The notes under the pieces were generated by a model, which was not told the origin of the DNA, made no database searches, and saw nothing but the letters and a program-made list of their open reading frames with translations. Shown piece by piece: positions 3,513-23,217 of a DNA stretch of 23,217 nucleotides. The position numbers and the translations under genes are program-made. The stretch is from positions 1-23,217 of the IMG/VR virus record IMGVR_UViG_3300009180_000223; one strand, written 5' to 3'. Origin of the DNA: a virus. Position 1 is the first letter of the stretch. Each line of letters starts with the position of its first letter.

Positions 3513-3520
3513 TAAAAAGG

Positions 3521-3572: not shown

Positions 3573-3578
3573 AGATAT

Positions 3579-4241: not shown

Positions 4242-4256
4242 TACAACTTAATATGA

Positions 4257-4986: not shown

Positions 4987-5006
4987 CAAAAAATAAGCCC
5001 CCGCTA

Positions 5007-5036: not shown

Positions 5037-5041
5037 AATAA

Positions 5042-5365
5042 ATGGCAACCGCCACTGAAGAAAAAACAGTAACACTAATTGACGGCACAAAAGTCAAGGT
5101 TCGACCACTAAAAATCTCACTACTTCGTCCGTTTATGAAGAAGTTTGAAGATATTGCAAAGGTTGCAGAAGATAATGAAAAGTCTATGGATTTACTAATG
5201 GACTGTGTTCAAATCGCAATGAAACAATACAAGCCAGAATTGGCAGAAGACAAGGAAGCCCTAGAAGAAAATCTAGACCTTCCAACTGTATATAAAATTG
5301 TTGAAGAGGCATCAGGAATCAAACTTTCCGACGCTTCACTAATTGGCAATCTTGTAAATAATTAA
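5042..5365 (+). CDS. Tail assembly chaperone, short form (G-like), paralogue of the preceding gene
   Basis: A 107-residue protein aligning with residues 1 to about 95 of the preceding gene product. Shared blocks are LID/LVD near residue 12, PLKI, LR.F..KFE/TFE, IAMKQY/IAMQQY, NLDLPTVY/NLDLPTIY and GIKL/GIKI, roughly 35-40 percent identity by eye with one or two small gaps. It stops where the long form enters its unique extension. This is the relation normally seen between the G and GT products of one frameshifting gene, but here it comes from two genes. It has a perfect ribosome site and both arginines are CGN, consistent with the short form being the abundant one. The tape measure gene follows after 17 bases. 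Confidence 0.75.
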   Translation: MATATEEKTVTLIDGTKVKVRPLKISLLRPFMKKFEDIAKVAEDNEKSMDLLMDCVQIAMKQYKPELAEDKEALEENLDLPTVYKIVEEASGIKLSDASLIGNLVNN

Positions 5366-5382
5366 ATAAAGAGGTGTAATGG

Positions 5383-8300: not shown

Positions 8301-11300
8301 AGTCGACGGTTCATTCGTCACTGGAAGATCTGGTGGAGACTCTGGATCAGTAACAATCAGAGCCGATGCTAAATCAAATAAAGCAGCGCTTAGAGCAATT
8401 GCTGATGTAGATGGAATAACTACTTACGGCAAAAAAGATACAGATATAAAGGATGTTGGTCGAAGCAATCCTAAGCACAGGCACATGACTGGAGTTTATG
8501 AAACAGCAGATGGTAAGGGTAAAGTATTTGTAAAACCAATGATTAATCTAGAAAATGCTCTTGCAGAACAAAGAGCAGCAACTATATTAAGAGACGCTCA
8601 CGGCCTTGAAGTGCCAGAGCAAAGAATAACAATGATGAAAGATCCAGTTACAAAACGATTGGTCTATGCCTTAGAATCCGTATTTGATCCGAAGTTTGCT
8701 GGAAAAAATATTCCTCTTACTTTTTCACAAGATGAATACTTTAGACAACTACTGGCATCAGCACTTAGAGGAGATAAAGACCTTGGCAAGGGTAACCTTG
8801 GAGGCGGAAAGGCTCCAGATGTAGGAACTGCTTATATATATGATGAGGCAACACAATACAATCAAAAAACAGGCAAGGAAAGAGTTATTAGTGATGCAGT
8901 AAAGTCGGTTGGTCATCAAGCACTAATAAATGTTGGAGGAGTTGCAGGCTCTGGTGCTAAAAAGTTTTTTGCTGATGCTACTAGAGATATTGCATTAAGC
9001 ATGAGTCCAGATGAGTATCAAAGAAGAATGGTTGCTGAAATAGATCGTGTTCTTCCTAAACTTAGAGAAACAATAGCAAAGTTTGGATTAACAGGTAATG
9101 AAGCAAAGCCATATAATGCTATTATAGAAAGACTTGAAGATGCTAGAAATAATGTTGACTGGAAAAAGATACATACTGCACATACCACTGCTGGCAAGGT
9201 TGCGATAACACCAGATGAACTAATTTTAAATAATAAAAGTAAAAAAACAAGAAAGCCAAAAAAAGAAAAACTTCCTAAAAATGCTCAGTCTTCAGGTGGA
9301 TCAAAAGATACAGTAATGACAACTGCTCCTGGAAAGAATGAGCAAGTTGTCAAGCCAGGAAAGCCTAATGTAAAAACAGGAAAGTTAACAATAAGAGGAC
9401 ACGCTGATGCTCCAACATTAGTTAATGCAGGTGGAGTTAATTCATCATCAGTAGCAAATGCTGTTGTAGCAGGGGCTAAGGGTTCCCTTGCAGAAGCAAG
9501 AGCAGTTGGTGCAAATATTGGAACAACACTTTCACAGTCAGCAGCAGCAGCCTCAAGAACAATGTTATATGGTACTGGACCAGTAGATGCAGAAGCAAAA
9601 TCATTACGTCGTCAAATAGAAAAACGCCAAAGAGAAAATGCAAAAACGCAGGCAAAAATAAATGCAAACAAAACTGCAATGTATGGAACCACTGGTCCAA
9701 TTGATCCAGTAATGAGGGGCAGAAGAAAACAAGCAGAACTTGAAATGAAACGAAGTAAACTAGCAGCAAAGGTAGCATACCAACAGCAAATCATTTCTGA
9801 AAGAGCAGCAGCAGAAGCCAAGAGCAAGACTCTGTCTGGAAGAATAACTGCATTTGCTTCAAAGAGAGCAGATGCTAGACAAGCAAAAATTAATGCAGGC
9901 AAGCGCCCAGGAATGGGTATTGGAGGTGCAGTCGGTATTGCATCAGGTGCTGCAATGATTGGATCTATGGCCCCAGGCAAAGTTGGAGAAATTTCACAAA
10001 AAGTAATGATGCCACTTATGGGTCTGTCTATGATTATCCCAATGCTTCGTAGCCCAGCCTCAGCATTAGCCATCGGCCTTACTGCAACCGTAGGAGCCTT
10101 TGTTGCATTAAGAATGGCCTTTGATGGCGCACAGAAAAAAGTTCTTGAAGAGAGCGAAAAGTTTAAGGGGTCTGCTTCTGCAATAGATGCAATAGCAAAG
10201 TTTAGCGGTAAAGTAACAGCGTCAGAGCAAATGGATCTAAGAAGAAAGAACTCATTCTCAATGCTAGGCCCAGCAACAGGAAAGACAACATATGGAGAAG
10301 CATTTGTTCAGACACCAGAAGGCAAAGCATTAACAGCGAGAATTGCAGAGCAAAATGCTGCTGGAAAGGGTAACGTAGCAGCAAAAGATTTGAGTGGACA
10401 ACTCTCAGCATCCATTATGTCTGGTGCTATTGATATGTCACAAGCAAAAAGTCTTGCAATGAATGCTGCTAGACAGGCAGGAGATATGTCTATTGGCATT
10501 AAGGTTATTGCTCAACTGGAAAGCCTGCTTGGTCCAAACGGAGAAAATCTAATTAATGATCCATTAAATGTTAGACTTAATATGGTTACTGAAAACGGCA
10601 AGAATATGCAAAGTAGCATTGACAGCATTAGGGGTGCAGATCCAATAACAAAACTTGCTGGACAAAAGACAATGCAAAAGGTTGGTATTGGTGCCTCTGC
10701 CCTAGGTGGAGCAGCAGCAGGTGCAGGTATTGGAGGAATGATTGGTGGTGCTCTAGGTGCTGTCGGTGGTCCTCTTGCTGTTATAACTGCAGGTATAGGT
10801 GCAACTATTGGAGCAGGAATCGGTGCTGCAGTTGGTGGAATCGGTGCATACTTTGCATCAAAGAAGTTTACAAAGCAAGCAGGAACGCTAGGTGCAGCAG
10901 CAGCAGTAGATGCAAAGATTGCAATGGAACAAAACAAACAAATGCTTGATTCGTTTGACATGTACTATCAAAAGAAAATTGAAGAGTTAAGACTTCAGGG
11001 TAAAATTAATGAAGCAGAAGAAATGCAAAATAAATATATTAAGGATAGAGATACACTAACTGCTGCTCAAGGTGCACTACAAGGCGATGTTGTTGCACAG
11101 TATAATTCTGCTGGAGGACTTCAAGAGTCGATGATGACTGGAATGAAAAAAGCAACAACCGCAAGATACAAAGATGATCCTAATCAATTAGCCTATCTAG
11201 ATGTTGTTAATCAACAAGCAGGAGACCTTAGAAAAGATGGACTCATTAGTAGTGGTCAAGAGTATCTAATTCAAGCAAAGATGGCAAGTGGTGACATTCC

Positions 11301-14300
11301 TCCAGCAGTATTTAGAACTCTTTTAGGATTAGCAGCAGACAACAAAGATATTGCTCCAAAGATGATGGAGATTATTACTAAGTTTAGTGGCGCAACTTCT
11401 GAGTCAATAGGTGTAGCAGCACAAAATATTCTTGGATCAGATGGTGTTATTAACAAAACAGTTCAGACTCAATTTATAACAAAAGTTGAAGCATTTGAAA
11501 AAGACTCAGACGCTCTTGACTTTGCAAAGAACATTATTAAGTTAAACAATCTTAATGCAGTAATTCCATCAGACGTTATGGTCAGTTACTATACAGACCC
11601 AAAGAATAAAGCAGCATACGATAACTTAAATAGAATTCTTGATACCATCGAGGGTAGCAAAAACTTAACTGCAAAAATTGTTTATGAGATTATGCCAGAA
11701 ATTAAGGGCACTGCAGCATTTGACGAAGCATACTTTGAGACTTTAACAGAAGATCAGCAAAAGGTATATACAACAACTATCTCATCATTAATAAATGTTC
11801 CAGAACCAAAACTTATTGAAAGCGAAGACTTTAAGGCCTGGCGTAAAGAGTCAGGACCAAAGGGTGGAGCGGGTGTTACTGGAAGCAAGTCATATATAGT
11901 GCAAAAATATATTGAGGCTCAGGGAAATAAGGCTGTCACTGATTCAGTACAAGTTGGAGTTAAGGCTCCAGTTACAACAGGTGGCGGTGGCGGGGGAAGT
12001 AAGGTACAGTCTTCACCACTAGATGATCTAGTAAAGAAACTAAGAGATGTAAGAAAGAACCAGATCAAGGTCACAGAAGGCTGGAGTGCCTCACGTAAGG
12101 CCCTAGATAACCTGTTTGGTGGCAAGAAGACAATTGATGTATTTAGTGGTATTGAAAATGATCTAAGAGCAATCGGTGGAAGTCAAGACTTTATTGAGTT
12201 AATTGTTGGCATGGATCCAAAGGAGTACGAAAAGAAAAAGAATTCTTTATTTAAGTTTGACAATAAAGGCAACATTGTTGCACTAAAGGAAGATGCTAAA
12301 AATATTCAAGAAGCACTAAACTCAATTACAATGGGTGACTGGAATTCAAGCATGGAGGCAGAACTTGAGTCTATTAACAATCAAACTGCTGCTTTTGATA
12401 AACTAGCCAAGATAGGTGTTCCAGTAGCAGACGCTTACGAATTAATTTCTGACAAAGCACTTGCAGCATCAATTGCAAACGGAGTAAATGAAAAAACATT
12501 AAACACATTAATAGCAAAATATAAAATATTAAAGGTGGTACAGGAAAAATCAGCAGCAGTAGAAAATGTCAAAAAGGATGTGTCCAAGGCTAATACAGAC
12601 AGACTTCAAGAACAAAGACTAAAGGGTTACAACCCAATAGATGCTTTTGCTATCAAATCAGACGACAATCTTTCATCATTAGAAAGTTCTATATTCACAC
12701 AAAAGAATGCTTTGAGCAGACTAATAGACAAAAAAAATAGAGCAAAGCCTGGGGCATATAAAGATAAACTAATTGCACAAATTGAAGCGGCTCAAGATGC
12801 TTTAGAAGAGTCAGAGGCACAGTTTGCAGAAAGACTGGTACAACTAAGAGACACCATTGGCCTAATGGAAGACATATACAACGATGTTTATAACAAGGGT
12901 ATGGAGATGTTTGATATAAGAGAGCAAGCATTCCAAATAGACTTTAAAATTAATACTGATCAACTAAATAAAGATATTGAAAAAGCACAAAATGAAATAT
13001 CAGCAATTCAATATAACGTTGACGATAAAGAGGCAGCGCTAAAGGCTATTGAAGATCAAGAGCAGAAAATTAATGAAAGATACGACGAAAGAATTGAAGC
13101 ATTAAATAAGGTAGAAGCAGCAAATGCAGCAATCAATGCTCAGCAGAAAGGCCAACTTACATTAGCAGAGGCACTAACATCTGGAGACATCGCAGCAGCA
13201 GCCAGAGCAGCACAGGACATGAGAGCACAACAAGCAGCAGATGCTGTAACAAAAGAAAAGGATGCCTTAGAGAGATCAAGACAAAACGAATTAAATCAGG
13301 TAACTGGGCTTGACAAAACTGACAAGAAATATAAAACTAGAAAACAACTTGAAGAGGAAATTAAAACTCTTCAGGACAGCATCTTCAACAAAGAAGAAGA
13401 AACGATTGAGCCAAAACAGGAATTGATTAGGCTTGCAGAAGTTCAGTTAAAGAAAGACATAGACTCTATAAAAGTTGCTAATATGACAAGAGATCAATGG
13501 GAAAAAATAAGAAGCAATGTAGAAATGTCAAGAATGGGAATAGAAGGGTATGAAGAGTCTTTAAAGAGAGCAGTTGGCTATGCAGATCAATTAATCGCAA
13601 GATATGGTAAAGAGTCATTCTTGAACTCTAACGCAGCGCTTATTACTGAAAAGCCAAAGACAATTCCAGAAATTCCAGATGGAAGAGATTCTGTAACTTC
13701 ACAAACAACAACCCCAACACCAGACCCAACACCAAAGCCTGAACCAAAGCCTGAACCAAAGCCTGAACCAGAGCCAGAACCAAAGCCAGAACCAAAGCCA
13801 AAGCCAGTTGTCGTATGTCCTCCTGGAACAAAAGATGATGGAAACGGAAATTGTGTTTCAATCCTTCCACCAATACTTCCGCCAGTAACTCCTAAAGTAA
13901 CACCAAAACCAGTTGTTCCTAGTTATAAGGATGATGATAAAAACGGTATTCCAGATTTAATTCAGGCACCAAAACCAAGTTATAAGGATGATGATAAAAA
14001 CGGTATTCCAGATTTAATTCAGGCACCAAAAACCGTATTGACTCCTGTTCCAGGAACTGGCATACCAGGAACTGGCTCTGTTGCAAAAGCATTTCCACCA
14101 ATAATGGTTCCAAGGGCTGTTGTTCCAGCACCTAAAGACTTAGATAAAAACGGAATACCAGACAACATACAGGCACCAAAGAAGACTCTAGTTCCAGGAA
14201 CTGGCGTGTATCAAGGAAGCATGTTCATTCCTCCTAAGTATAAGGCTAAAGGTGGAATCATTCCAAAGATGTTTGCGCTTGGCGGTTTTGCAAAGGGTAC

Positions 14301-14556
14301 TGACACAGTGCCTGCAATGCTAACTCCAGGAGAGTTTATTATGAGCAAGTATGCTGTTGATTCCTACGGCTTAGAGAATATGAGAAAAATAAATAATGGT
14401 GATTCTATTGACGGTACAGTGTATAATAATACATATACATTAACAGTAAATGCTAGAACTGATGCAAATCCAAACGATATTGCACAGGCGGTAATGTCAA
14501 CAATTAAGAGAGTTGATGATAGAAGAATTAGAGGAGTGTCCTTAAATGGCCGATGA
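5383..14556 (+). CDS. Tail tape measure protein, very long, with several inserted modules
   Basis: A 3,057-residue protein that sets tail length and occupies the tube lumen before DNA ejection. GAGGTG precedes the ATG at 5383. Order of parts: helical N-terminus (1-185); TP901/PhageMin-type core about 187-455 (hydrophobic GFTVPLVMLGAA, then helices with TLAREYTKYGV and FGKFQFSRLSTLF); hydrophobic segment 543-577; DTVPSMLTPGE motif 679-689; an insert about 700-1,270 with a kinase-like stretch; helical, basic region; hydrophobic segment around 1,510-1,575; glycine-zipper segment 1,767-1,827; long helical region with strong coiled-coil character about 2,420-2,740; KPEP repeats; DDDKNGIPD repeats; a second DTVPAMLTPGE motif 2,974-2,984; conserved C-terminus with ARTDANPND. 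The length exceeds most siphophage tape measures. At roughly 1.5 angstrom per residue it would allow up to about 450 nm, less if inserts are looped out or cleaved. Confidence 0.92.
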   Translation: MADVESNIHVNIDTSDALASLKLLQRQISAFHTQMAKSGTAAAAVAANQAQNLMNSINATGQFQASMRSVTTSTEQFTDSLERNKLTSREYFRYTGAATKTFGRLFKSEFETINKVARERVKDIQTQYIKLGRGANGSLQAIAVRPLTLDMKNLGTQTAIAAQRQQLLNQLLKQGSTNLLNFGKNTQWAGRQLMVGFTVPLVMLGAAASKTFMQLEEQAIRFKRVYGEMFTTAEETDAMVKQIQTLAREYTKYGVAVEDTMKMAADAAAMGKQGAALMAQVAQATRLAVLGGVEQEQALETTISVTNAFGVATEDLAKKIDFLNAVENQTVVSIEDLTIAIPKAGPVVQQLGGDVEDLAFFLTAMKEGGINASEGANALKSGLASLINPSKKAAGMLGDLGINIKGIVEANKGDIKATVVGFAQALDTLDPLNRARAIEQLFGKFQFSRLSTLFQNVTAQGTQANRVLQLTQSTTEELAILSQRELDKIQNTTTYKFKKSMEDLKVAIAPVGEQFLKALTPIVEFVAKILDKFNNLGEGSKKFLTIFTVAVAGIGPVLLMTFGLIANAVANIIKMFAGMKSMYNRTGSASKVLGEQTNYLTKEQLEASAVSASLDQVHQKLQQTFTSEAGALNNLANAYRRAIAAQMGFTGPARGGKSVKGLKKYSTGTGKVPGTGNQDTVPSMLTPGEAVIPAQAAQDPANRPVIARMIAGETVQGFNTGSGNVQPDGNEKLAFAHAAAPIQYKNVSDIPDEFGDKARGLQARGIASAYGYTGIGFDIPASMNTAMDKSTVDVRAYEAAIKNPESIKTMTARLMDPPLKLSAGEALRVSNEIRSNLLSSLAILPDGSQINDKTIYSRVGSIRKGILGGLARDPKNKTIIQRMLDPHGIGAAVKSTTTYDERRATPAELREAVAKAGNANKILPAIDRLIKHHPGFPIEVVRDKNGNIVGYNRPEVSRSNPTKKPTKFSNASLVDGSFVTGRSGGDSGSVTIRADAKSNKAALRAIADVDGITTYGKKDTDIKDVGRSNPKHRHMTGVYETADGKGKVFVKPMINLENALAEQRAATILRDAHGLEVPEQRITMMKDPVTKRLVYALESVFDPKFAGKNIPLTFSQDEYFRQLLASALRGDKDLGKGNLGGGKAPDVGTAYIYDEATQYNQKTGKERVISDAVKSVGHQALINVGGVAGSGAKKFFADATRDIALSMSPDEYQRRMVAEIDRVLPKLRETIAKFGLTGNEAKPYNAIIERLEDARNNVDWKKIHTAHTTAGKVAITPDELILNNKSKKTRKPKKEKLPKNAQSSGGSKDTVMTTAPGKNEQVVKPGKPNVKTGKLTIRGHADAPTLVNAGGVNSSSVANAVVAGAKGSLAEARAVGANIGTTLSQSAAAASRTMLYGTGPVDAEAKSLRRQIEKRQRENAKTQAKINANKTAMYGTTGPIDPVMRGRRKQAELEMKRSKLAAKVAYQQQIISERAAAEAKSKTLSGRITAFASKRADARQAKINAGKRPGMGIGGAVGIASGAAMIGSMAPGKVGEISQKVMMPLMGLSMIIPMLRSPASALAIGLTATVGAFVALRMAFDGAQKKVLEESEKFKGSASAIDAIAKFSGKVTASEQMDLRRKNSFSMLGPATGKTTYGEAFVQTPEGKALTARIAEQNAAGKGNVAAKDLSGQLSASIMSGAIDMSQAKSLAMNAARQAGDMSIGIKVIAQLESLLGPNGENLINDPLNVRLNMVTENGKNMQSSIDSIRGADPITKLAGQKTMQKVGIGASALGGAAAGAGIGGMIGGALGAVGGPLAVITAGIGATIGAGIGAAVGGIGAYFASKKFTKQAGTLGAAAAVDAKIAMEQNKQMLDSFDMYYQKKIEELRLQGKINEAEEMQNKYIKDRDTLTAAQGALQGDVVAQYNSAGGLQESMMTGMKKATTARYKDDPNQLAYLDVVNQQAGDLRKDGLISSGQEYLIQAKMASGDIPPAVFRTLLGLAADNKDIAPKMMEIITKFSGATSESIGVAAQNILGSDGVINKTVQTQFITKVEAFEKDSDALDFAKNIIKLNNLNAVIPSDVMVSYYTDPKNKAAYDNLNRILDTIEGSKNLTAKIVYEIMPEIKGTAAFDEAYFETLTEDQQKVYTTTISSLINVPEPKLIESEDFKAWRKESGPKGGAGVTGSKSYIVQKYIEAQGNKAVTDSVQVGVKAPVTTGGGGGGSKVQSSPLDDLVKKLRDVRKNQIKVTEGWSASRKALDNLFGGKKTIDVFSGIENDLRAIGGSQDFIELIVGMDPKEYEKKKNSLFKFDNKGNIVALKEDAKNIQEALNSITMGDWNSSMEAELESINNQTAAFDKLAKIGVPVADAYELISDKALAASIANGVNEKTLNTLIAKYKILKVVQEKSAAVENVKKDVSKANTDRLQEQRLKGYNPIDAFAIKSDDNLSSLESSIFTQKNALSRLIDKKNRAKPGAYKDKLIAQIEAAQDALEESEAQFAERLVQLRDTIGLMEDIYNDVYNKGMEMFDIREQAFQIDFKINTDQLNKDIEKAQNEISAIQYNVDDKEAALKAIEDQEQKINERYDERIEALNKVEAANAAINAQQKGQLTLAEALTSGDIAAAARAAQDMRAQQAADAVTKEKDALERSRQNELNQVTGLDKTDKKYKTRKQLEEEIKTLQDSIFNKEEETIEPKQELIRLAEVQLKKDIDSIKVANMTRDQWEKIRSNVEMSRMGIEGYEESLKRAVGYADQLIARYGKESFLNSNAALITEKPKTIPEIPDGRDSVTSQTTTPTPDPTPKPEPKPEPKPEPEPEPKPEPKPKPVVVCPPGTKDDGNGNCVSILPPILPPVTPKVTPKPVVPSYKDDDKNGIPDLIQAPKPSYKDDDKNGIPDLIQAPKTVLTPVPGTGIPGTGSVAKAFPPIMVPRAVVPAPKDLDKNGIPDNIQAPKKTLVPGTGVYQGSMFIPPKYKAKGGIIPKMFALGGFAKGTDTVPAMLTPGEFIMSKYAVDSYGLENMRKINNGDSIDGTVYNNTYTLTVNARTDANPNDIAQAVMSTIKRVDDRRIRGVSLNGR
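8410..9177 (+). other. Kinase-like region inside the tape measure protein (residues about 1,010-1,265)
   Basis: The stretch shows spaced elements of the atypical kinase fold (HipA / type II PI 4-kinase-like). These are a strand pair GVYETADGKGKVFVKPM with candidate ATP lysine K1051; a helix ALAEQRAATIL with candidate glutamate E1062; a GLEVPEQRI turn; then LRGDKDLGKGN with candidate catalytic D1133 and metal-binding N1138; and YIYDEA with D1154 in the place of the second metal ligand. The order and spacing are right. The usual D-R-H around the catalytic aspartate is D-L-G here, and no glycine loop consensus is evident. The assignment is by pattern only and could be wrong. Confidence 0.4.
10681..10863 (+). 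other. Glycine-zipper hydrophobic segment of the tape measure protein
   Basis: Residues 1,767-1,827 are almost entirely Gly, Ala, Ile, Leu and Val with G-x-x-x-G spacing (GASALGGAAAGAGIGGMIGG and continuing through GAGIGAAVGGIGAY). They end in a basic KKFTKQ. Such segments insert into or pack within membranes, and a tape measure protein could use one to form the DNA channel across the host membrane. The feature is seen directly; the role is inferred. Confidence 0.7.
13735..13806 (+). repeat. Lys-Pro-Glu-Pro codon repeats in the tape measure gene
   Basis: A 12-base unit (AAGCCTGAACCA and variants) repeats about six times and encodes KPEPKPEPKPEP and then EPEPKPEPKPKP. This forms a stiff, extended linker between the helical body and the C-terminal domains of the tape measure. 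It lies just after a TPTPDPTP segment. Exact short tandem units make length variation by slippage likely. Confidence 0.85.
13921..14031 (+). repeat. Perfect 57-bp tandem duplication encoding DDDKNGIPD calcium-site-like repeats
   Basis: Copies start at 13921 and 13978, and 54 bases are identical. Each encodes SYKDDDKNGIPDLIQAPK. A diverged third copy at 14131-14181 encodes PKDLDKNGIPDNIQAPK, and an earlier GTKDDGNGNC at about residue 2,815 resembles half a unit. D-x-D-x-N-G-x-x-D is the spacing of thrombospondin type 3 and dockerin-like calcium loops. Confidence 0.85.
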
Positions 14557-15187
14557 AGAGATAGATCCTAGGGTAACCTATATACAGGGTCGTAAGAAAT
14601 ACAACAGACCTAGTGGAATGCTTTGGTCTGAAAATACTGGAACTCTTAAAAATGGTTTGTACGTTCCCAATGGATATGAAATAGGCGTAGATCCAGAAAG
14701 CGTTGAAGACGAAACATTACTAGATCAATTTTTATTAATTACTGACGATAATAGACAGCCACTTGAGTTTTCTGAGGAAAGAATTGAAAAGCGTGAAAGA
14801 ATGATCAATGGCAGAATGAGATCATATCATATTGCAGACAAAATTACATTAAGCACAAGTTGGAATATGATACCTTCTAGGTCCCATTTAAACATACCAA
14901 CCTTTGATACTGCAACTGGAATTTCTCCATACAAGTCTTATACGACGGATGGTGGCGCAGGAGGGGCAGACATGCTTGAGTGGTATGACTCACACAAGGG
15001 GTCTTTCTGGGTATTTCTTGCATATGACAGAAAAGGAATTTTTAAAGGAACATCAGAACCATACGATCATCTTGGACAATATAACCAACTTATTGAAATG
15101 TTTATTAGTGATTTTTCTTACTCTGTTGAAAAAAGAGGAACTAATTTTGATTACTGGAATGTCTCAATAAGTCTGGAAGAGGTATAA
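14546..15187 (+). CDS. Minor tail protein, distal-tail-like
   Basis: A 213-residue protein whose start overlaps the end of the tape measure gene by 11 bases, with GAGGAG at 14531-14536 as ribosome site. This is the position of the distal tail protein that joins the tube to the tip in siphophages. The C-terminal half contains DMLEWYDSHKGSFWVFLAYD and ends in FDYWNVSISLEEV, an ending common among actinophage minor tail proteins. No catalytic motif is seen. The distal-tail role follows from synteny and remains to be confirmed. A second open frame in the same stretch (14904-15170) is a shadow. Confidence 0.65.
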   Translation: MADEEIDPRVTYIQGRKKYNRPSGMLWSENTGTLKNGLYVPNGYEIGVDPESVEDETLLDQFLLITDDNRQPLEFSEERIEKRERMINGRMRSYHIADKITLSTSWNMIPSRSHLNIPTFDTATGISPYKSYTTDGGAGGADMLEWYDSHKGSFWVFLAYDRKGIFKGTSEPYDHLGQYNQLIEMFISDFSYSVEKRGTNFDYWNVSISLEEV

Positions 15188-18100
15188 TGTTTGAAGACAA
15201 AGACCTGCAAACATTTTTAGAGACTTCTTCAACAGTACGCAACAAGTCAATAATCACAGCAGAATGGAACATGAATACACCCACCAATATAAAGCATATT
15301 GGAAACTATAGATACAGACCAACAGAGCCTTCTTCTATTTATTCTTCACTGCCAACCAGTTTTGATATTAATGATGCTGGAAATTTTTATACAGGAGCAA
15401 CCGATGCAGATGTTTTGGTAGATGGAACATTTGACAATGACAATATCCCAACAACCTTTTTAACAAAGAAAGAAAAATTACAAACTCTTTATTCTTTAGA
15501 GGAATGCTTTAACCAGTTTAGACCAAGGTCTGGAATCAACAAGGCAGTCTTTTTTGAGAACGGAAAACTGCACCACCCTAACCTAGTTATGGCTGATAGA
15601 CCAAGATATTATATGCCAGATAAAAATGACAAGTTTAAGTATTGGACATCATACAGAACAGAACTAGGACAAGAGTACGGTATTGCTTCTAAGGTTAGAG
15701 GTTCTCAAAATTCCATAGAAGATGCTTGTCCGTTTGTTGTGTACAAAGAAAAGGTCCCAACAAATAGGGTTGTCATTAAGATGCAAACCCACACTGGAAC
15801 AGAAAACCTTGGACCATTCTCATCATCAACAGGATCATTTGCAGATCCATTCTTTGGCGATTTAAATCAAAAGGTGCCCACAAGATGGAAGATTCAGTTT
15901 TTAAAAGATGGAAATTGGCAAGATGTAATATCATTTAATCCAGCAATAAGAAGATCAGATGGTTCGGCAATTATCAAAAGCGATGGATATGTAGAAATCG
16001 CTTATGGATTGGTAGTACCAGAAGAGTGGAGATCAAACTTTGTTTTTGCAGAGGTATACACAAGCATATCTCTTCTTCCTGAAAAGTCTGTTATTGGATA
16101 TGCTTATCTTATTAAAGAAAATGAAAACGATATAGGAAAGTTCCATATTTGGAACGGTGAAGATTATACAATTGTTACACCAGGATACGGCTGGTATGTA
16201 CAAGATGAAACAGTAAATAGACTAACCAACTTTGTTACAGATGCTACATCACCCAATGTATTCACAAGATCTTTGGATGGAAAAGAGCAGTATCGAGAGT
16301 TTGAGTATATATCTGGTATTAGAATTGTTGTCGATGCAATGAACGTAAAGGATTCAACATTTGACCTTATAGAGATTTCTCCAAGACTTGTTATTAATGT
16401 TTCCGATAAAACGTTAGACTATTCAATAAATAAAAGCGCTTCAGATCTTGGACTAAGTGGTTTGCCAGTAGGTCAGTTAATTGCTTCTGAGGGAAACATT
16501 AATATATTTGACTATGACCAAGCATTCAATGAAAACAATCCCTCAAGCATAATAGCAAAGTATGTAAACAGACATGTTCAGTTTAAGTTTTATGAAGTAA
16601 TAGTAGATGTCAATGGATGGGACTACTATGTTCCAATTAAAACATTGTACTCTGACTCATTTCCAAAACAAGACATTATGGGCAAAATCGTATCATTATC
16701 TTTAAGAGATATGTATTGGTATTTAGAATCAATAACTGCTCCACAAATATTAATGACAGAGGTCTCTGTTAGTTCTGCCGTATCTCTTTTGCTAGACCAC
16801 ATTGGTTTTTCTAACTACACATTTAAAAGAGTAGCAAATGAAAAAGAAATTATTATTCCATACTTCTTCGTTGGACCAGACAAGAGTGTTGCAGAAGTGC
16901 TTCAAGACTTGGCGGTATCAACTCAGACTGCAATGTTCTTTGATGAATACAATAATTTTGTTATGATGAGTAAAGACTATATAATGCCAACCAAGGATCA
17001 AAGACTAACAACATTTGCCCTTAAGGGAACTAGTGATTTATTTCAAGACAGAGAGATCAACAACAAAACACTTCCAGGTGCAAAAATTGCAAACGTTATA
17101 TCTGTATCTGTTCAGTCAAACAATGTTTATAATGATGGAGTGATCAACTACACAACAAGGCATATACAAAGATCTATTGGATCGTTAAGACAGGCAAGCC
17201 TTCTAGATGATGAAAGGTTCTATACATACAAGCCAGTTCTCTTGTGGGAAGTATCTGGAACAGAAAATACAAAGTCAATCAATAATGAGGTTGGCACTCA
17301 GTCCTCATATGTTCTTTCTGCAATACCATTAAATTCTAATCTTTCAGCAGAAGTTCCAGTTGTTAAAAATAACATTGTTATAAATAACACATTTAGTCTT
17401 GGTGAGGCTGCATACTGGATCACAAGATACAACGGATATTTTTATTCACAAGGTGAAATTATAAAATATGATGCCGTTCAGTATAATGTTACTGGGTTTG
17501 GAAATGTTTGGATAACCTCTATCGAAGACTATCAAAACTATTTTTCTAAGTTACCGTTTAATGGAAAGATATATCCAACAGGTCTTGTAAGAATTTACTC
17601 AGAGCCAAAGTACTTTGAGCAATCTGGAGTTGTTAAACTTCAAAATGGAGAAGTTCAAAAGCATGGTCGTGGACAATTTGGAACAACTGTAGTAGCACAC
17701 AGCGCAGGCATATCTGATTACTGGAAGTCTGACGATAATATTAAGGGCTGCTACATGGCTTCAGAATATCTTTTTGAAAAGTCAGAGTTGCCCTTAGCAA
17801 CAACTGTTGGATCCTCTGGTAAATTAACTGATGCCAACGTATCTTCTGATGCACTTGCAAGAACATCTTCTAGAAGTGGAATTATTAAAAACTTTATGTC
17901 AACTTCTATGGTTGGTGAAATAACAACTAACACCAAGCAACTTCCTGGATCTATTCAGTCATCAGCATTGTCTTTGACAGGTCCAAACTTTACTACAAAA
18001 GAAAAGCCAAGAAATTTTATTTCATATGTTCACAAAACATTACAGGGTAAAAAGTATAAGCACTTTGGAACTAGAATGAGAATAGTTGGAAAGATTGAGA

Positions 18101-19479
18101 GCAATCAAGACCGTGGACAAACATCAAATGGTTCTTCTACATACTATGTTGTTAACGGTTCTACTCCAGATAAAAATATTAACATTGCGGGTGGTTCTGC
18201 AGGAATTGCGGTAATGTTAAATCCTACAACAAATGTTGGATACTATTTTGAAATAGCAGCCCTTGGATTAGGAAATCTATCAGAAACAGATAGACAAAGT
18301 GTAAGCAATGTTTTCTTTTATAAGGTAAAGTCTGATAACGGGAAAGCAGTTCCCGTAGGTCTATGGGATGGCCTTGCTCAGATTACGGTAGATGATGGAA
18401 GATTTACTGGTCAGTCAAGAATGTTTGCTGAAGAAAATCCGACGGTATACGATTTAGCAGTAGAGTACGAAGACATAGGAAAGACAAGAAGATTCTACTT
18501 ATACATGAACGGCAGATTAATAAAGACAGTAGACGATAATGATCCTCTACCAGTATACTCTGACATAGCGCTATTTACAAGAGGATCTTCAAGAGCGATG
18601 TTTGAGAATGTTTATGCACTATGCAACAACTACTCTCAAAATACTTCCTTCTCTTTGGGTGCTCCAGTTAATTCTGTATTTGGAGATAATGAGGTTGATG
18701 CAAACGAATCATTTAGAAAATATGCAATTAGTGGTTTGATACAAAACACATATCTATCTGGTATTGGATCCTCAGAGCCTCCAAAGTATGACATATATTT
18801 TGAAGAGTTTGGAAGCATAATGAGAGAGGCAGCAGTATTTAATTTTAAATATGATAAAGCCTATCCAGCACTTACAGCAAAAATATCACCAACTTTTAAT
18901 AAGATGAAGGGCTACGTAGTTTCTGGGTTTAGAGCGGGATCATATGGCGCAGAGTTTTTAATATTTAATGCAACAGACTCTGCATTAAGTTTAGACGAAA
19001 CAAGTGGAAACTATCTAAGAATCCAGGGTGTTACATTTACTCAAGAATCTGACAACAACATAACAGTTGATGATTATTTTAATAAGAATAGCCTTACATC
19101 AAATCCACAGTTTGTTGCAGATAAATTAATTTCAAACCCATTTAAATTTAAACAAGACTATCAAGACATCAAACTTAGTAGAATGACTTATGGTAAAAGA
19201 GATTTTTCTTTAGATACCCCATATATACAGTCACAGGATGAAGCCTCAAGTCTAATGAAGTGGATAATAGAAAAAACATCAAAGCCTAGAAAGTCTATTG
19301 GAGTTAAAATATTTGCAATACCAACAATACAACTTGGTGACATAGTTAGTTTAGATTATAAAGAAAATGCTATTGATATGGCAGCAAACTCTTCTAGCAG
19401 GTTTGTTGTTTATAACATTGAATTCTCAAGAGATTCTAGTGGACCAGATATGACATTATTTTTAAGTGAGGTTGTTTAA
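15187..19479 (+). CDS. Large minor tail protein, baseplate-hub-like, with lectin/LamG-like insert
   Basis: A 1,430-residue protein that begins in the stop codon of the preceding gene (TAATG) with GGAAGAGG upstream. A central region about 459-610 contains HVQFKFYEVIVDVNGWDYY, then SSAVSLLLDHIGFSNYTF and VGPDKSVAEVLQDLAVSTQT, a pattern found in tail hub (gp27/Tal-like) proteins. The C-terminus from about 1,319 (KLSRMTYGKRDFSLDT, GDIVSLDYKENAI, FVVYNIEFSRDSSGPDMTLF) reads like the last hub beta domain. Between them, residues about 939-1,145 look like a concanavalin/LamG-type jelly roll (RRFYLYMNGRLIKTVDDNDP followed by IALFTRGSSRAMFENVYAL), suggesting host-surface glycan binding inserted into the hub. 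Residues about 170-310 may be another beta-sandwich. No protease or lysin motif is obvious. Arginine is mostly AGA. Confidence 0.75.
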   Translation: MFEDKDLQTFLETSSTVRNKSIITAEWNMNTPTNIKHIGNYRYRPTEPSSIYSSLPTSFDINDAGNFYTGATDADVLVDGTFDNDNIPTTFLTKKEKLQTLYSLEECFNQFRPRSGINKAVFFENGKLHHPNLVMADRPRYYMPDKNDKFKYWTSYRTELGQEYGIASKVRGSQNSIEDACPFVVYKEKVPTNRVVIKMQTHTGTENLGPFSSSTGSFADPFFGDLNQKVPTRWKIQFLKDGNWQDVISFNPAIRRSDGSAIIKSDGYVEIAYGLVVPEEWRSNFVFAEVYTSISLLPEKSVIGYAYLIKENENDIGKFHIWNGEDYTIVTPGYGWYVQDETVNRLTNFVTDATSPNVFTRSLDGKEQYREFEYISGIRIVVDAMNVKDSTFDLIEISPRLVINVSDKTLDYSINKSASDLGLSGLPVGQLIASEGNINIFDYDQAFNENNPSSIIAKYVNRHVQFKFYEVIVDVNGWDYYVPIKTLYSDSFPKQDIMGKIVSLSLRDMYWYLESITAPQILMTEVSVSSAVSLLLDHIGFSNYTFKRVANEKEIIIPYFFVGPDKSVAEVLQDLAVSTQTAMFFDEYNNFVMMSKDYIMPTKDQRLTTFALKGTSDLFQDREINNKTLPGAKIANVISVSVQSNNVYNDGVINYTTRHIQRSIGSLRQASLLDDERFYTYKPVLLWEVSGTENTKSINNEVGTQSSYVLSAIPLNSNLSAEVPVVKNNIVINNTFSLGEAAYWITRYNGYFYSQGEIIKYDAVQYNVTGFGNVWITSIEDYQNYFSKLPFNGKIYPTGLVRIYSEPKYFEQSGVVKLQNGEVQKHGRGQFGTTVVAHSAGISDYWKSDDNIKGCYMASEYLFEKSELPLATTVGSSGKLTDANVSSDALARTSSRSGIIKNFMSTSMVGEITTNTKQLPGSIQSSALSLTGPNFTTKEKPRNFISYVHKTLQGKKYKHFGTRMRIVGKIESNQDRGQTSNGSSTYYVVNGSTPDKNINIAGGSAGIAVMLNPTTNVGYYFEIAALGLGNLSETDRQSVSNVFFYKVKSDNGKAVPVGLWDGLAQITVDDGRFTGQSRMFAEENPTVYDLAVEYEDIGKTRRFYLYMNGRLIKTVDDNDPLPVYSDIALFTRGSSRAMFENVYALCNNYSQNTSFSLGAPVNSVFGDNEVDANESFRKYAISGLIQNTYLSGIGSSEPPKYDIYFEEFGSIMREAAVFNFKYDKAYPALTAKISPTFNKMKGYVVSGFRAGSYGAEFLIFNATDSALSLDETSGNYLRIQGVTFTQESDNNITVDDYFNKNSLTSNPQFVADKLISNPFKFKQDYQDIKLSRMTYGKRDFSLDTPYIQSQDEASSLMKWIIEKTSKPRKSIGVKIFAIPTIQLGDIVSLDYKENAIDMAANSSSRFVVYNIEFSRDSSGPDMTLFLSEVV

Positions 19480-20039
19480 TGACAAGCCCAACATCAGGAG
19501 ATGCAGTTGCAGCACTGCCCAAAGCATTGCCAAAAGGAATTGATGATTCAGTAAAGATAGCAACTCCAGATTTAATTTTATTTAATGAAGACGTAATGTC
19601 TATTGACATAATGACAGACCTAATCTTTGAAGATATTGGTGGCTATGAACTTGCAACTATATCTAGGCATGACTTGGTAAATGGGCAAAAGGTAGTATAC
19701 TCTCCAATTAAAAATTTAACAGACCTATATTTACAGTATAATCCTAACAATGTTTTAAGATTACAAGAATCAGACTCTTACTTTAAGTCTTTATCTTTGT
19801 CTATCTTTGACCACCTACCAGTCTGTGGAACTGGTTACGACATATCTCCCCCAGAAAGCAATCCAGATGAAAAAGACAAGACTAAATGGAAAAAAACACC
19901 AAATTGTAAATCGGTTTACATAGATCCAATAAGCGGCGACCTGATTATTAATCTAATTAATGTTAAAGAGGGCGAGCAAGCAGAGGTTCAAATTTTAACT
20001 AGTGGAGATACTTTTAGTGATACAATACATAGTATATGA
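19479..20039 (+). CDS. Minor tail-module protein of unknown function
   Basis: A 186-residue protein starting in the stop codon of the hub gene (TAATG overlap). After a short Ala/Pro/Lys-rich N-terminus it has a block around IGGYELATISRHDLVNGQKV and YSPIKNLTDLYLQYNPNNVL, and near the C-terminus YIDPISGDLIINLINVKEGE, which looks like beta strands. Proteins with this GYEL.TISRHD...NGQ.V pattern occur in actinophage tail modules, but I know of no assigned function. Two cysteines (residues about 129 and 147) are present. It probably sits in the tail tip. Confidence 0.65.
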   Translation: MTSPTSGDAVAALPKALPKGIDDSVKIATPDLILFNEDVMSIDIMTDLIFEDIGGYELATISRHDLVNGQKVVYSPIKNLTDLYLQYNPNNVLRLQESDSYFKSLSLSIFDHLPVCGTGYDISPPESNPDEKDKTKWKKTPNCKSVYIDPISGDLIINLINVKEGEQAEVQILTSGDTFSDTIHSI

Positions 20040-20053
20040 TATGGGAGTAATTA

Positions 20054-21208
20054 ATGATAACTAATATAGGTAAAAATCTTTTAGCCAAGTATCTTGTGGG
20101 GCAGACGCAATCATATGCCTCTCACATTGCTGTAGGCTGTGGGCCCACTCCAGTGTCTTCTGACGGGGGTAATTTCGGTAACTATAGCCTAAAACAATCT
20201 CTAGATTTTGAGATGTTTAGAGTTCCTATTATTTCTAGAGGATTTGTAAATGAAGACGGTATAGATAAAATAGTTCTAACCGCAGAATTGCCAACAGAAG
20301 AAAGATATGAGATTACAGAAGTAGGAGTATTCTCGGCAGCATCAAACCCAGTTGCTGGATCATATGATAGTAAAAATATCTATTCTTTTGCAGACACAGA
20401 CAATTGGCTATATCAGCCAGTTGGTTCTGCTGCAGTTCAAATAGAACCAGTTTATACACCTTTAGATGGAGAGTCTAATAACGGAATAATAAATCAAACT
20501 GCTACTGTTTTTCAAACAAATGCAGACAACAGAATATTTACACAGACAGACAGACTTGCAAGAAATGAAAGATGCAGATTTTTAAATAATATAATTGCCA
20601 TTGTAGGAAATAGTTCTACTCTAACAACCAATTCTCTTGGAAAGATACAGGTTGGAGCAGACTCTAAATATATTAGGCTAAATGAAACATCTGTAGATTT
20701 TACAAAAAACAGTCCTTTAGATGAACTAAGGTTTGCATTTTCTGTTGTAAACAAGGTTGCTAACTCAAATACTGTCCCAGATAATGTTAAGATATTATTA
20801 GAGTTTGCTCACTCAGGTCCAAACGCAAGCCAAGAGTATGCAAGGTTTGAGGTAAACATTGATGATCAGTCATATATTGCTGGAACTGCTACAGACAAAA
20901 GAAATCTGGCCACAAACAGATATCTAGTTTCTACAAAATCACTTAAAGATTTAAACAAAACAGATAACTTTGATTGGAGAGAAGTTTCTTTGACAAGGAT
21001 TTACGCATGTGTTACTGAAGCAGGATCTCCTTCTGACCTGTTTTATGTTTGCTTAGATGGTTTAAGGCTAGAAAACACAACCTCTACAAACTCTTTGTAT
21101 GGTCTTACTGGCTACTCTGTAATTAAAAGTATAGGCTCAAAGCCAATTGTAAAGTCAGCAAATACAACAAACTATATTGAATTTAGATTTGCGTTGGATG
21201 TCGGGTAA
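20054..21208 (+). CDS. Minor tail / tail-tip structural protein
   Basis: A 384-residue protein preceded by GGGAG at 20043-20047. The N-terminus (MITNIGKNLLAKYLVGQTQS, then SHIAVGCGPTPV) followed by a strand block ending in ERYEITEVGVFSA is a pattern shared with phage baseplate/tail-tip subunits, in which a helix is followed by a beta domain carrying E-[IL]-x-E-[VI]-G-[VI]-[FY]. The rest is beta-rich, with a possible second sandwich at about 200-384. It may support or carry the receptor-binding protein. No enzymatic motif is seen. Confidence 0.6.
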   Translation: MITNIGKNLLAKYLVGQTQSYASHIAVGCGPTPVSSDGGNFGNYSLKQSLDFEMFRVPIISRGFVNEDGIDKIVLTAELPTEERYEITEVGVFSAASNPVAGSYDSKNIYSFADTDNWLYQPVGSAAVQIEPVYTPLDGESNNGIINQTATVFQTNADNRIFTQTDRLARNERCRFLNNIIAIVGNSSTLTTNSLGKIQVGADSKYIRLNETSVDFTKNSPLDELRFAFSVVNKVANSNTVPDNVKILLEFAHSGPNASQEYARFEVNIDDQSYIAGTATDKRNLATNRYLVSTKSLKDLNKTDNFDWREVSLTRIYACVTEAGSPSDLFYVCLDGLRLENTTSTNSLYGLTGYSVIKSIGSKPIVKSANTTNYIEFRFALDVG

Positions 21209-21636
21209 TGGCAGATAAAGGAATTAAGAACGTTGTTGTTAAAAAAGAATCACTTGGAAAAGTTACATCCTCTAACTCTAGAGTAGTAAGGTTTAGAATT
21301 GTTGCAGAAGACAAAAACAGAAAGTCTGCATACTCAAAAATATTTATCACTGGATCAGACGTTGTAGTATTTGGTGATGGTGACATGAATTTTGTTGGAA
21401 ATACTGTGTTAATAAACTGGGTTGCTGGTGACTCATCAATACAAATACTTTATGATATTTTTGTAGGTTTTGGTGGAGCAACGCCATCTTATGTAGGTTC
21501 TACTGCATCAAAAAATTATTCTTTTTTAAAAAATGGAAATCAGTCTATAAGAGCAGTTGTTCAGGTTTCATCAATAAATCCAAGGCTAGAAGACGCATTA
21601 GAGGTATACGATTCTGGAATCGTGAGTCTGGTATAA
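21208..21636 (+). CDS. Small beta-rich tail-module protein, unknown
   Basis: A 142-residue protein whose ATG overlaps the previous stop (TAATG). The sequence is dominated by alternating hydrophobic strands (RVVRFRIVAEDKNRKSAYSK, NTVLINWVAGDSSIQILYDI, QSIRAVVQVSSINP), consistent with an Ig/fibronectin-III-like sandwich. N-R-K-S-A-Y-S is reminiscent of strand junctions in such domains. I do not recognise the family. Its stop codon TAA lies within the -10 box of the promoter for the next gene. Confidence 0.6.
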   Translation: MADKGIKNVVVKKESLGKVTSSNSRVVRFRIVAEDKNRKSAYSKIFITGSDVVVFGDGDMNFVGNTVLINWVAGDSSIQILYDIFVGFGGATPSYVGSTASKNYSFLKNGNQSIRAVVQVSSINPRLEDALEVYDSGIVSLV

Positions 21637-21646
21637 TTATACTATG
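21629..21646 (+). promoter_or_regulatory. Extended -10 promoter predicted to give a leaderless mRNA
   Basis: TGGTATAAT at 21629-21637 has its hexamer (21632-21637) ending six bases before the ATG at 21644, the same spacing as at 4294-4306. There is no purine-rich ribosome site between. The box overlaps the stop codon of the upstream gene. Confidence 0.6.
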
Positions 21647-22087
21647 GCAATTTTACCTGTTCCAGAGCGTGGACAACCACTAGACGTTACATATATTTAT
21701 CAGATTGTTAAGGCTATCAATGATCTTTCTACACAGGTATCACCTTCAAACTACAAGTATGTAACAGTTGATACGCCAAATGCTGGTAAGCAAAGCGTGA
21801 AGGCTTCTGAAGCAAGAATTATTGGTGGATATGTTCAGGTAACTACTAGCACCACACAGACTGCTGGATCATCACAGCCATTCTCATATGACTTTCAAAC
21901 TGAGTTTAAGTTTGCTCCAGTAGTTACAGCAACACCAGTAAACGTTGGAAATACAGATGCTGGTAAAGATGTAACAGTTACACTAAAAAGTGTTTCAACT
22001 TCAAAGGTTGAAGGCACTGTTAAATTTAATGCTGCAGGAGATACTAGTATTGGAATTAACCTAGTCATTATTGGAATACCAAATTAA
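21644..22087 (+). CDS. Candidate receptor-binding / tail tip protein with H-type-lectin-like domain
   Basis: A 147-residue protein. The N-terminal 40 residues (QPLDVTYIYQIVKAINDLST) look like a short trimerising helix or attachment segment. The C-terminal about 100 residues form strands in the pattern of H-type lectin-like sandwiches: GYVQVTTSTTQTAGSSQPFS, FQTEFKFAPVVTATPVNVG, VTVTLKSVSTSKVEGTVKFN and GINLVIIGIP. The H-type lectin resemblance is to the hydrophobic pattern and the F...F...P.V spacing, and was not established by alignment. It is the last clearly structural gene and is preceded by its own promoter, as host-range proteins may be. It has no ribosome site. Confidence 0.6.
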   Translation: MAILPVPERGQPLDVTYIYQIVKAINDLSTQVSPSNYKYVTVDTPNAGKQSVKASEARIIGGYVQVTTSTTQTAGSSQPFSYDFQTEFKFAPVVTATPVNVGNTDAGKDVTVTLKSVSTSKVEGTVKFNAAGDTSIGINLVIIGIPN

Positions 22088-22278
22088 TGATTTCATGTGA
22101 AAAATGTAATGGAAGAATGTTTATAGATAGACAGTATACAGAGATAAACAATTTAGAGTTATACTGTATTCTTTGCGGGTCAAGAAAATTTTTTCATCCG
22201 CCTAATAATTCTCAGGAGGGCCGATGGCTACTAAAAAGGGAACAATTGAGAGCGAAAATTACAATGAGTCACCTGTAA
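22087..22278 (+). CDS. Small zinc-ribbon protein
   Basis: A 63-residue protein starting in the preceding stop codon (TAATG). It has C-x-x-C at residues 4-7 (CEKC) and C-x-x-C at 27-30 (CILC) with a spacing of about 20 residues, a classic four-cysteine zinc ribbon. Such small phage proteins bind nucleic acid or RNA polymerase, but the partner is unknown here. The last 18 residues overlap the next gene out of frame, and the ribosome site of that gene (AGGAGGG) lies inside this one. The tail after the ribbon (KREQLRAKI) is basic. Confidence 0.7.
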   Translation: MISCEKCNGRMFIDRQYTEINNLELYCILCGSRKFFHPPNNSQEGRWLLKREQLRAKITMSHL

Positions 22279-22766
22279 TACCAGGTAATAAAAAGGTTTG
22301 GTTTCTTAATGGAGATCTAGTTAGGGTTCACCACTACAATCATTCTAATGGAATTATGTCTGTTTATAATATAAATAAAGATCAAATTGAAAGTTGTTTA
22401 ATTAGTGATTTTAAAAATAAAAGAGAACGGGCATACACTGTAGGACAGACTGCTGATTTAGTTAATCGTCATAAAAAATATATGCCGTCATTAATGAAGC
22501 GAGGAGTAATTCCATTTCCGACGGGATCGCAAAAGGGTGGTGCAAGAGGATTTCAGGTAAGATCATATTACTCAGAATCACAAGTAAGGGAGATTCGTGA
22601 TATACTTGCTTCACACCATATTGGCAGACCAAGAAAAGATAAGTTAATTACAAATGATATTACGCCCAGCAAACAAGAGTTGACACGCAGAATGGGCGAT
22701 GGTATACTTACATATAGGAAAACAGAAGATGGGAGATTTGTTCCAATCTGGAACGAGTCTATTTAA
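22224..22766 (+). CDS. Helix-turn-helix DNA-binding protein, MerR/excisionase-like
   Basis: A 180-residue protein preceded by AGGAGGG at 22214-22220. Residues about 72-132 read as a winged-helix-like MerR domain: a YTVGQTADLVNRHKKYMPSL helix pair, an R-G-V-I-P-F-P wing region, then RSYYSESQVREIRDIL. GRPRKDK just after (residues 133-139) resembles an AT-hook. The N-terminal 60 residues form a small beta segment (KVWFLNGDLVRVHHYNHSNG). It could be a transcription regulator of this phage or a replication/excision accessory factor. The fold is fairly clear by pattern; the target is unknown. A promoter for the next gene lies inside its 3' part. Confidence 0.7.
   Translation: MATKKGTIESENYNESPVIPGNKKVWFLNGDLVRVHHYNHSNGIMSVYNINKDQIESCLISDFKNKRERAYTVGQTADLVNRHKKYMPSLMKRGVIPFPTGSQKGGARGFQVRSYYSESQVREIRDILASHHIGRPRKDKLITNDITPSKQELTRRMGDGILTYRKTEDGRFVPIWNESI
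22680..22708 (+). promoter_or_regulatory. Full sigma-70-type promoter inside the HTH gene
   Basis: TTGACA at 22680-22685, a 17-base spacer, then TATACT at 22703-22708 preceded by TGG. This combines a perfect -35, optimal spacing, an extended -10 and a near-consensus -10. Transcription would begin near 22715, with a leader of about 65 bases before the ATG at 22780. It is the only promoter in the window for which I see a -35. Confidence 0.7.
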
Positions 22767-22779
22767 CGAAGGGTATAAA

Positions 22780-22989
22780 ATGCAAAACGAAGAGACAAAG
22801 GTATCCGTTACACTGGGTTACACACTTAATCTTGGCAACTTTCAATCACTAAGACTTGATCTTGGAGTTGTAGATGCAAGACGTAATGGAGAAACCCCAG
22901 ATCAGGCTTTTGAGCGTGTATATAAGTTTGTTGAAGATAAACTTACAGAAAAGATTAAAGAGGCACAAGAAGAGGCTGCCGAAGCATAA
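22780..22989 (+). CDS. Small conserved-looking phage protein, function unknown
   Basis: A 69-residue protein. The ATG at 22780 is chosen because GAAGGG at 22768-22773 is six bases upstream. The in-frame ATG at 22699 would require reading through the 3' end of the HTH gene and overlaps the promoter. The N-terminus is a beta hairpin (KVSVTLGYTLNLGNFQSLRL) and the C-terminus an acidic helix (ETPDQAFERVYKFVEDKLTE). This hairpin-helix design, with an NLGNF/YxS strand, recurs in small phage early proteins, but I cannot name its role. Confidence 0.7.
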   Translation: MQNEETKVSVTLGYTLNLGNFQSLRLDLGVVDARRNGETPDQAFERVYKFVEDKLTEKIKEAQEEAAEA

Positions 22990-23217
22990 TGGCTGAACGC
23001 AAAGACCGTATGGCTTTGCTTTCAAGATACAGCAAGTATCATACCGCAAGGTACGAATCAAAGCCATCTTTAAATCTAAATGTAGAACAATGGGCATCTG
23101 ATGCTCTTGTTGAGTCTTATACATTGACAGGATGCTACGATATACTTGAGTATTACTTTACCGTTTCAGAAAGCCCTTCATGGAACTACTTTGCATATAA
23201 TGCAGAAAAAATATTAC
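22989..23217 (+). CDS. Partial gene, runs off the right end; unknown function
   Basis: The ATG at 22989 overlaps the previous stop codon (TAATG). The frame is open to the window end, giving 76 residues starting MAERKDRMALLSRYSKYHTA, with NLNVEQWASDALVESYTLTG and a YDILEYYFTVSESPSWNYF stretch. It is rich in aromatic residues and helical in character. No motif is recognised in the visible part. Translation coupling to the gene before suggests it belongs to the same operon. Confidence 0.7.
   Translation, partial: MAERKDRMALLSRYSKYHTARYESKPSLNLNVEQWASDALVESYTLTGCYDILEYYFTVSESPSWNYFAYNAEKIL

Follow-up and report, generated by a model that had tools for sequence, protein, structure and literature searches.

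A probable host-sigma promoter kept within the coding region of an HTH gene at the border of the virion and replication genes of an uncultured phage

The window analyzed here, a stretch of 23,217 nucleotides from the viral record IMGVR_UViG_3300009180_000223, carries close to its right end an HTH gene whose last codons spell, fully within the reading frame, the letters of a bacterial promoter. The initial annotation had described TTGACA-N17-TATACT with a TG extension in the 3' end of this gene, and both letters and coordinates were found to be as described. The locus raises the question of whether such a site, here designated P2, is a working promoter or an accident of coding sequence, and which genes it would serve. 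The features concerned are the following.

22224 to 22766, + strand: gene of the HTH protein, 180 aa (PHROG phrog_9440, MerR-like)
22680 to 22685, + strand: -35 hexamer of P2, TTGACA, equal to codons L153-T154 of the HTH ORF
22686 to 22702, + strand: 17-nt spacer of P2, with the TGn extension at 22700-22702 (TG at 22700-22701)
22703 to 22708, + strand: -10 hexamer of P2, TATACT, in codons G160-I161-L162
22715 to 22779, + strand: predicted P2 leader up to the next start codon, its start placed by spacing only
22780 to 22989, + strand: first gene downstream of P2, 69 aa (phrog_5189)
22989 to 23216, + strand: second gene downstream of P2, cut by the window end (phrog_11101)

P2 combines a -35 near TTGACA and a -10 near TATAAT with the fixed spacer of 16-18 nt of sigma-70/sigma-A promoters, and in the window it also has the TGn directly 5' of the -10 that characterizes an extended -10. 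From spacing only, the RNA is predicted to start 7 nt past the -10, at about 22715, which is 65 nt before the ATG at 22780. As a motif in this one sequence, P2 is only mildly unusual for the size and composition of the window. Sites matching at least 9 of the 12 hexamer letters numbered 60 in a scan of 3300-23217, against 58.1 (sd 8.8) in shuffles; at 11 of 12 or better the whole window has two, against a simulated mean of 0.73, and at least one was present in 33 of 60 Markov simulations. A single site of this quality has TGn (reached in 4/60 simulations) and a single one has exact TTGACA (14/60). Motif counting alone was dropped as promoter evidence, the lower threshold being at chance level and the higher one commonly reached in simulations; P2 is considered far beyond chance because of the comparison with relatives, and not by its motif alone. 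The window scan also returned a minus-strand TTGACA at 13531 with a poor -10, and TTAACA-N18-TATAAT at 9088. The statement that no other site has a full -35 is correct for the window, where P2 is the sole one with TTGACA and at least 11 of 12 letters overall, but not for the whole phage, since a 119-kb relative (G001) has eight TTGACA-N16-18-TATA(A/C)T sites, P2 among them.

At least 292 sequences of the HTH gene were collected among the matches listed, 239 of them distinct over the last 240 nt. Clade 1 comprises the 154 distinct sequences among these listed matches, window included, with at least 60% identity to the window protein; 46 loci came from a first scan, 107 from a second and none from a third, the remaining one being the window's own, and the search patterns that gathered them do not overlap P2 or the second element described below. 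Clade 2 is made up of 59 sequences from L224-L291 with less than 30% identity to the window protein (L231 was excluded by hand), and 26 of the 239 distinct sequences fall in neither clade.

Across the 154 clade-1 sequences listed, the -35 of P2 is TTGACA in 149, TTGACT in four and TTGACG in one, and the -10 is TATACT in 148, TATAAT in three and another sequence in three, so that TATA(C/A)T is present in 151/154 and a weaker -10 in 3/154. The whole TTGACA-N17-TATA(C/A)T is found in 146/154, and the extension dinucleotide is TG in 131, CG in 22 and GG in one, 23 of 154 thus being without the T. The exact site also occurs in 19 of 20 related records chosen from the clade.

The constraint is visible at the level of codons. 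By parsimony, hexamer codons 153, 154, 160 and 161 together accumulated six synonymous steps, where their degeneracy class predicts about 120, and none of 20000 degeneracy-matched random codon sets was as low. The three spacer codons R155, R156 and G158 varied freely, with 52, 28 and 33 synonymous steps (113 in total against 94 expected). Leu153 is TTG in 154/154, a codon used for 6.7% of the Leu residues at other columns; Gly160 is GGT in 154/154 (28% elsewhere), and Ile161 is ATA in 151/153 (25% elsewhere). Leu162 is never TTA or TTG (0/151), though these account for 58% of Leu codons at other columns, and in three sequences a swap of L162 to I turns the -10 into TATAAT, the motif being kept despite the amino acid change. 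Downstream of P2 most leader codons vary freely in clade 1, the nearly frozen ones 3' of the -10 being Tyr164, at the predicted start point (TAT in 154/154), and Glu168 (GAA in 151/154). The locus is a clear example of promoter selection that becomes visible at synonymous sites in uncultured viruses.

Codons with less than 20% of the synonymous variation that is the median of their gene were then counted as low. The HTH gene has six among 58 usable codons, all within P2 or the second element, while four other genes gave 2/209, 0/54, 0/14 and 0/19. Four further genes gave 2/19, 2/9, 1/11 and 3/15, partly explained: the two near the end of the 19479 gene belong to another extended -10, one of the two in the 21208 gene overlaps the -10 at 21629, and the one in the 22087 gene lies where that gene overlaps the HTH start. 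For the three in the 22989 gene (codons 4, 9 and 10, CGC, GCT and TTG, at 22998-23018) no explanation was found.

The next-lowest HTH codons with at least three synonyms are R125 and I127, which spell TGATATACT, an element that the initial annotation had not mentioned.

22598 to 22606, + strand: P1, extended -10 TGATATACT in codons R125-L128, without a conserved -35

Its TGNTATACT core is present in 147/154 clade-1 sequences, one member cut off before P1 being counted as lacking it; the codons are CGT in 143/148 and ATA in 149/153, and the changes D126A, D126G and R125C all leave TGNTATACT intact. P1 is assigned no conserved -35 because the codons upstream of it vary. In all 141 sequences with both exact motifs, the distance from P1 to the -10 of P2 is 102 nt. 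As judged from sequence, P1 probably fires into the same operon as P2, for which it would be a second start.

At five loci (L020, L022, L023, L024 and L026) the HTH gene is succeeded by an inserted gene and then by a 3' HTH fragment from which both P1 and the 5' part of the HTH gene are missing. This fragment keeps TTGACA-N17-TATACT just 5' of the 22780-type gene, and no extended -10 was found in the 200 nt before its site. These loci are counted as one event because they are identical over 89 nt there. The insert, which at L024:6589-7221 separates the HTH gene from the replication operon, is a 210-aa ORF that looks sulfotransferase-like by eye.

The genes beyond the window were deduced from G001, in which a DnaB_C match begins 1.06 kb after P2. 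Among 20 chosen proteins of this relative, a primase, a DNA polymerase and a UvsX-like recombinase lie downstream of P2, with a terminase 12 kb on, and the other side holds capsid-type, head protease and tail proteins and also a ribonucleotide reductase. The claim that P2 stands at the switch from the virion module to the next one is borne out, this next module being that of replication; no other TTGACA of the virion stretch is paired with a good -10. A canonical promoter, TTGACC-N17-TATAAT, is also seen at G001:25461 between DnaB and primase, and TTGACN-N17-TATAAT at the corresponding place, some 1.9-2.0 kb past the HTH gene, recurs in 41 of the 94 clade-1 loci of sufficient length.

Taken with P1 and with the timing set out below, these data make it highly probable that P2 is a promoter of the host primary sigma for the replication operon, kept by selection; very probably it is a real and important switch. 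Host RNA polymerase with the primary sigma would read P2 (22680-22708) and start RNA near 22715, and the transcript would cover the small genes at 22780 and 22989 and then DnaB, the operon served including DnaB, primase and polymerase. Almost no spacer separates the HTH gene from the replication operon, which would explain why the site is kept within the 3' end of that gene, and P2 would mark the border between the virion and the replication transcription units.

Among the alternatives, the one that survives best, unlikely as it is, holds that P2 is a promoter regulated by the HTH protein of the same stretch in an autoregulatory loop, a possibility which the initial annotation had raised from the location of the site. 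It agrees with the character of the protein family, in which HTH_17 was matched by 12 of 29 members and MerR_1 by 4 of 29, the window protein itself having no Pfam family, and with the best Foldseek neighbour of the protein model (mean pLDDT 75), the MerR-type CvkR, whose E value of 0.058 is not significant. Targets of MerR-type regulators have a 19-20-nt spacer holding a dyad operator. The P2 spacer measures 17 nt and contains no conserved operator-like letters, so that the MerR promoter layout is absent, and the same protein family is present in Streptomyces phages without the site; with the spacer and most leader codons varying freely, autoregulation is not supported.

Still less probable is that the constrained letters serve another function in DNA or RNA, such as an operator of the HTH protein, a leader RNA structure, or a replication or packaging signal. 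The gene does encode a putative DNA-binding protein, the window folds better than shuffles at 22660-22800 (z -2.65), and the near-frozen Tyr164 and Glu168 codons lie downstream of the -10. However, the frozen letters are mainly those read by sigma, with 17-nt spacing and a free spacer, and P1 carries the same TGNTATACT core at another place. A consensus RNA structure of 44 sequences had two pairs at -0.4 kcal/mol and no covariation; the leader RNA hairpin of the window was rejected, since these 44 sequences, compared across the final 54 nt of the HTH ORF, give it no support. Least probable of all, the hexamers could be a by-product of the well conserved peptide ELTRRMGDGILTY, whose codon choice could yield the same letters and which, in similar form in the Streptomyces homologue L082, is accompanied by a faint likeness (TTGAGA-N17-TATTGT), but this was rejected on the synonymous-site counts, TTG and GGT being frozen beside 52 steps at R155 and 33 at G158, and TTG being rare among Leu codons elsewhere in the gene.

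A series of extended -10 elements, absent from the initial annotation, was found at gene boundaries in the virion stretch of the window.

21629 to 21637, + strand: extended -10 TGGTATAAT, 6 nt before the ATG at 21644, leaderless spacing
20018 to 20026, + strand: extended -10 TGATACAAT, before the tail gene at 20054
5007 to 5015, + strand: extended -10 TGGTATAAT, before the gene at 5042, also in G001
4291 to 4299, + strand: extended -10 TGGTATACT, 6 nt before the ATG at 4306, G001 counterpart at 4780
522 to 530, + strand: extended -10 TGATATAAT, before the gene at 549, G001 counterpart at 925

When presence was scored within 57 nt upstream of the gene start in distinct relatives, an extended -10 was found before the 21644 gene in 129/132 and before the 20054 gene in 83/83, and before three operon-internal genes in 0/71, 0/96 and 0/125. 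Within 57 nt of the 22780 gene the count was 0/104, P2 lying further off. At the 21644 gene the element stands exactly 6 nt from the start codon, the leaderless spacing, in 68 of 135 loci. A -35 in these virion promoters was sought and rejected: at least four of the six letters of TTGACA at the right distance were seen in 26/126 before 21644, a slight excess at most over about 17 in shuffles, and in 4/80 before 20054, below the roughly 11 in shuffles. For the -35-less sites before 21644, no position from -44 to -18 exceeded 0.5 bit. A 14-bp terminator-like hairpin at 4255-4286 lies directly 5' of the extended -10 and leaderless-spaced ATG at 4306, and the roughly 50 bases of 4255-4306 seem to hold both the end of one unit and the beginning of the following one.

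G001 as a whole has 59 extended -10s against 22.8 expected. Its virion part was taken to end at 23.4 kb and to resume at 84 kb. Of the 25 elements on the + strand there, 17 lie within 45 nt of an ORF start, the ORF calls being rough, and a -35 matching at least 5/6 letters accompanies none of them; TTGACA with a good -10 was counted zero times there and nine times in the rest, P2 included. In 19 related records, other TTGACA-N16-18-TATA(A/C)T sites number three in 695 kb of the virion side versus 22 in 326 kb downstream, the records being related and the counts hence not independent. The limits of the count, 58 kb on the virion side of P2 and 55 kb on the other, were taken from the G001 map, and three sites 60-63 kb upstream, beyond the 58-kb limit, were left out (G002:117062, G020:65664 and G020:67876). 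The nearest of the three counted sites is 29 kb away from P2, and over the shorter distances upstream no other such site was found in the sequence available from the 19 relatives.

P2 has a full -35, and the virion-gene promoters would have the extended -10 only. Because P2 alone of these has a full -35, the replication genes could be read from the start of infection while the virion genes wait for conditions favouring -35-independent starts; P2 would be used from the outset, and P1 later, or later as well. The early use of P2 is plausible, the assignment to early or late being made from gene content. A broader programme is tentatively proposed for this actinophage group, and we regard it as possible but doubtful: two classes of host-sigma promoter, with -35/-10 sites for replication and other non-virion genes and extended -10-only sites for virion genes (about half of those before 21644 having leaderless spacing), and a replication operon equipped with one of each, P2 and P1, in the neighbouring gene. 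If true, this wider pattern would point to the way in which large actinophages lacking a detected sigma gene schedule gene expression, and P1 and P2 would form a compact test pair for it.

P2 shares TTGACA, the 17-nt spacing, TGn and TATACT with the canonical sigma-70/sigma-A promoter, a type read by the unmodified holoenzyme, and differs from it in lying wholly in a coding region and being kept there, as the codons indicate, by selection. The view that it is of a type readable by host polymerase with the primary sigma is upheld, and the Sigma70_r2 profile matched none of four related records, while the control matched in 10 of 14 genomes. In the first phages obtained on Ca. Nanopelagicales, both whiB and a sigma-70 gene are present (PMC10202952); the four related records here gave no Sigma70_r2 match. 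A WhiB gene is present in all four, and among the 14 control genomes only Corynebacterium matched. Because of WhiB in 4/4 related records, an actinobacterial host is likely.

Phage AR9 offers a likeness at the sequence level in its two promoter classes in tandem before replication genes: its 'continuously expressed' genes, replication genes included, have tandem early and late promoters, and 13 late promoters lie inside ORFs (PMC5312081). AR9 differs in that it uses multisubunit RNA polymerases of its own and other motifs, whereas both elements here look like those of host sigma. The leaderless part is not new as such, because the same text notes that phage transcripts are often leaderless (PMC5312081).

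The middle promoters of T4 resemble the present case in serving replication genes and having a good -10, and P1 is of their TGn/-10 type. In T4, TGn is found in about half of the middle promoters; AsiA, a protein that remodels sigma region 4, leaves TGn/-10 promoters unaffected and strongly inhibits those of the -35/TGn type (PMC2988021). P2 differs in having a full -35 and not an activator box at -30, and no MotA-box-like motif was seen upstream of the -35-less sites. The idea that P2 is active late through its extended -10 was withdrawn in view of this inhibition in T4 (PMC2988021), and by the T4 analogy P1, and not P2, would serve late. A switch at sigma region 4 is put forward by analogy as a testable idea only; the AsiA profile PF09010 matched 0/4 records and the single-subunit RNA polymerase profile PF00940 gave no match, the controls of both being also without any match.

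Promoters of the kind of P2 are already known; the novelty lies in how strong the evidence from codons is, in the pairing of P1 with P2, and in virion promoters that have an extended -10 only. In a literature search that covered few subscription papers, neither a description of the P2 site nor any promoter map of these phages was found.

The distribution of P2 was followed into more distant relatives. In the phage records searched the window has no close relative, the best identity being below 60%. Matches of the HTH protein with E up to 1 in the phage collection came from 134 records, 127 of Streptomyces phages and five of Rhodococcus phages; the Streptomyces phage HTH proteins are about 23-34% identical to it and some are annotated as MerR-like. 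Neither P2 nor the clade-2 string described below was found in the orthologous codons of 12 Streptomyces and two Rhodococcus phages compared codon by codon, and because these codons vary, P2 appears to be a trait of its clade.

In clade 2, TAT ACT codons are unchanged in 59/59 sequences, shifted 12 nt onward relative to the clade-1 P2, and CTTCTCAAA-N15-TATACT, with CTTCTCAAA in place of TTGACA, is exact in 43/59. To our knowledge CTTCTCAAA matches no known -35, and the frozen string may be another element or a moved promoter. The motif TTCTCAAA-N14-16-TATA(A/C)T was rejected as a genome-wide one, its one match in four clade-2 records being the site itself.

Stanwilliamsviridae phages of Streptomyces (TunaTartare, Moab, BoomerJR, Coruscant and others) have the same order of HTH gene, small genes, DnaB and primase, a likeness by gene order in which the HTH and small genes of the window and the DnaB and primase of G001 were compared with L082-L092. 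They differ in what lies upstream of the HTH gene, a phosphoesterase gene and a holin/membrane gene, neither of which was seen in the window, and in carrying terminator-like hairpins at the HTH gene instead of TTGACA/TATACT. An unbroken stem of 11-17 pairs is present at 16 of 17 Streptomyces-type loci (a raw stem count, duplicates included and G-T allowed), nine of the hairpins lying before the HTH gene (11-14 pairs) and the following seven in its 5' part (15-17 pairs).

L082:6089-6125, intragenic 5' hairpin
L083:4024-4058, intragenic 5' hairpin
L090:2588-2626, intragenic 5' hairpin
L091:2522-2560, intragenic 5' hairpin
L095:2528-2566, intragenic 5' hairpin
L212:5633-5671, intragenic 5' hairpin
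L221:6004-6042, intragenic 5' hairpin

The HTH gene may be a transcription border across the whole group, differently built in each branch. At the seventeenth Streptomyces-type locus, that of Forrest, a stem of 10 pairs only lies further into the HTH gene.
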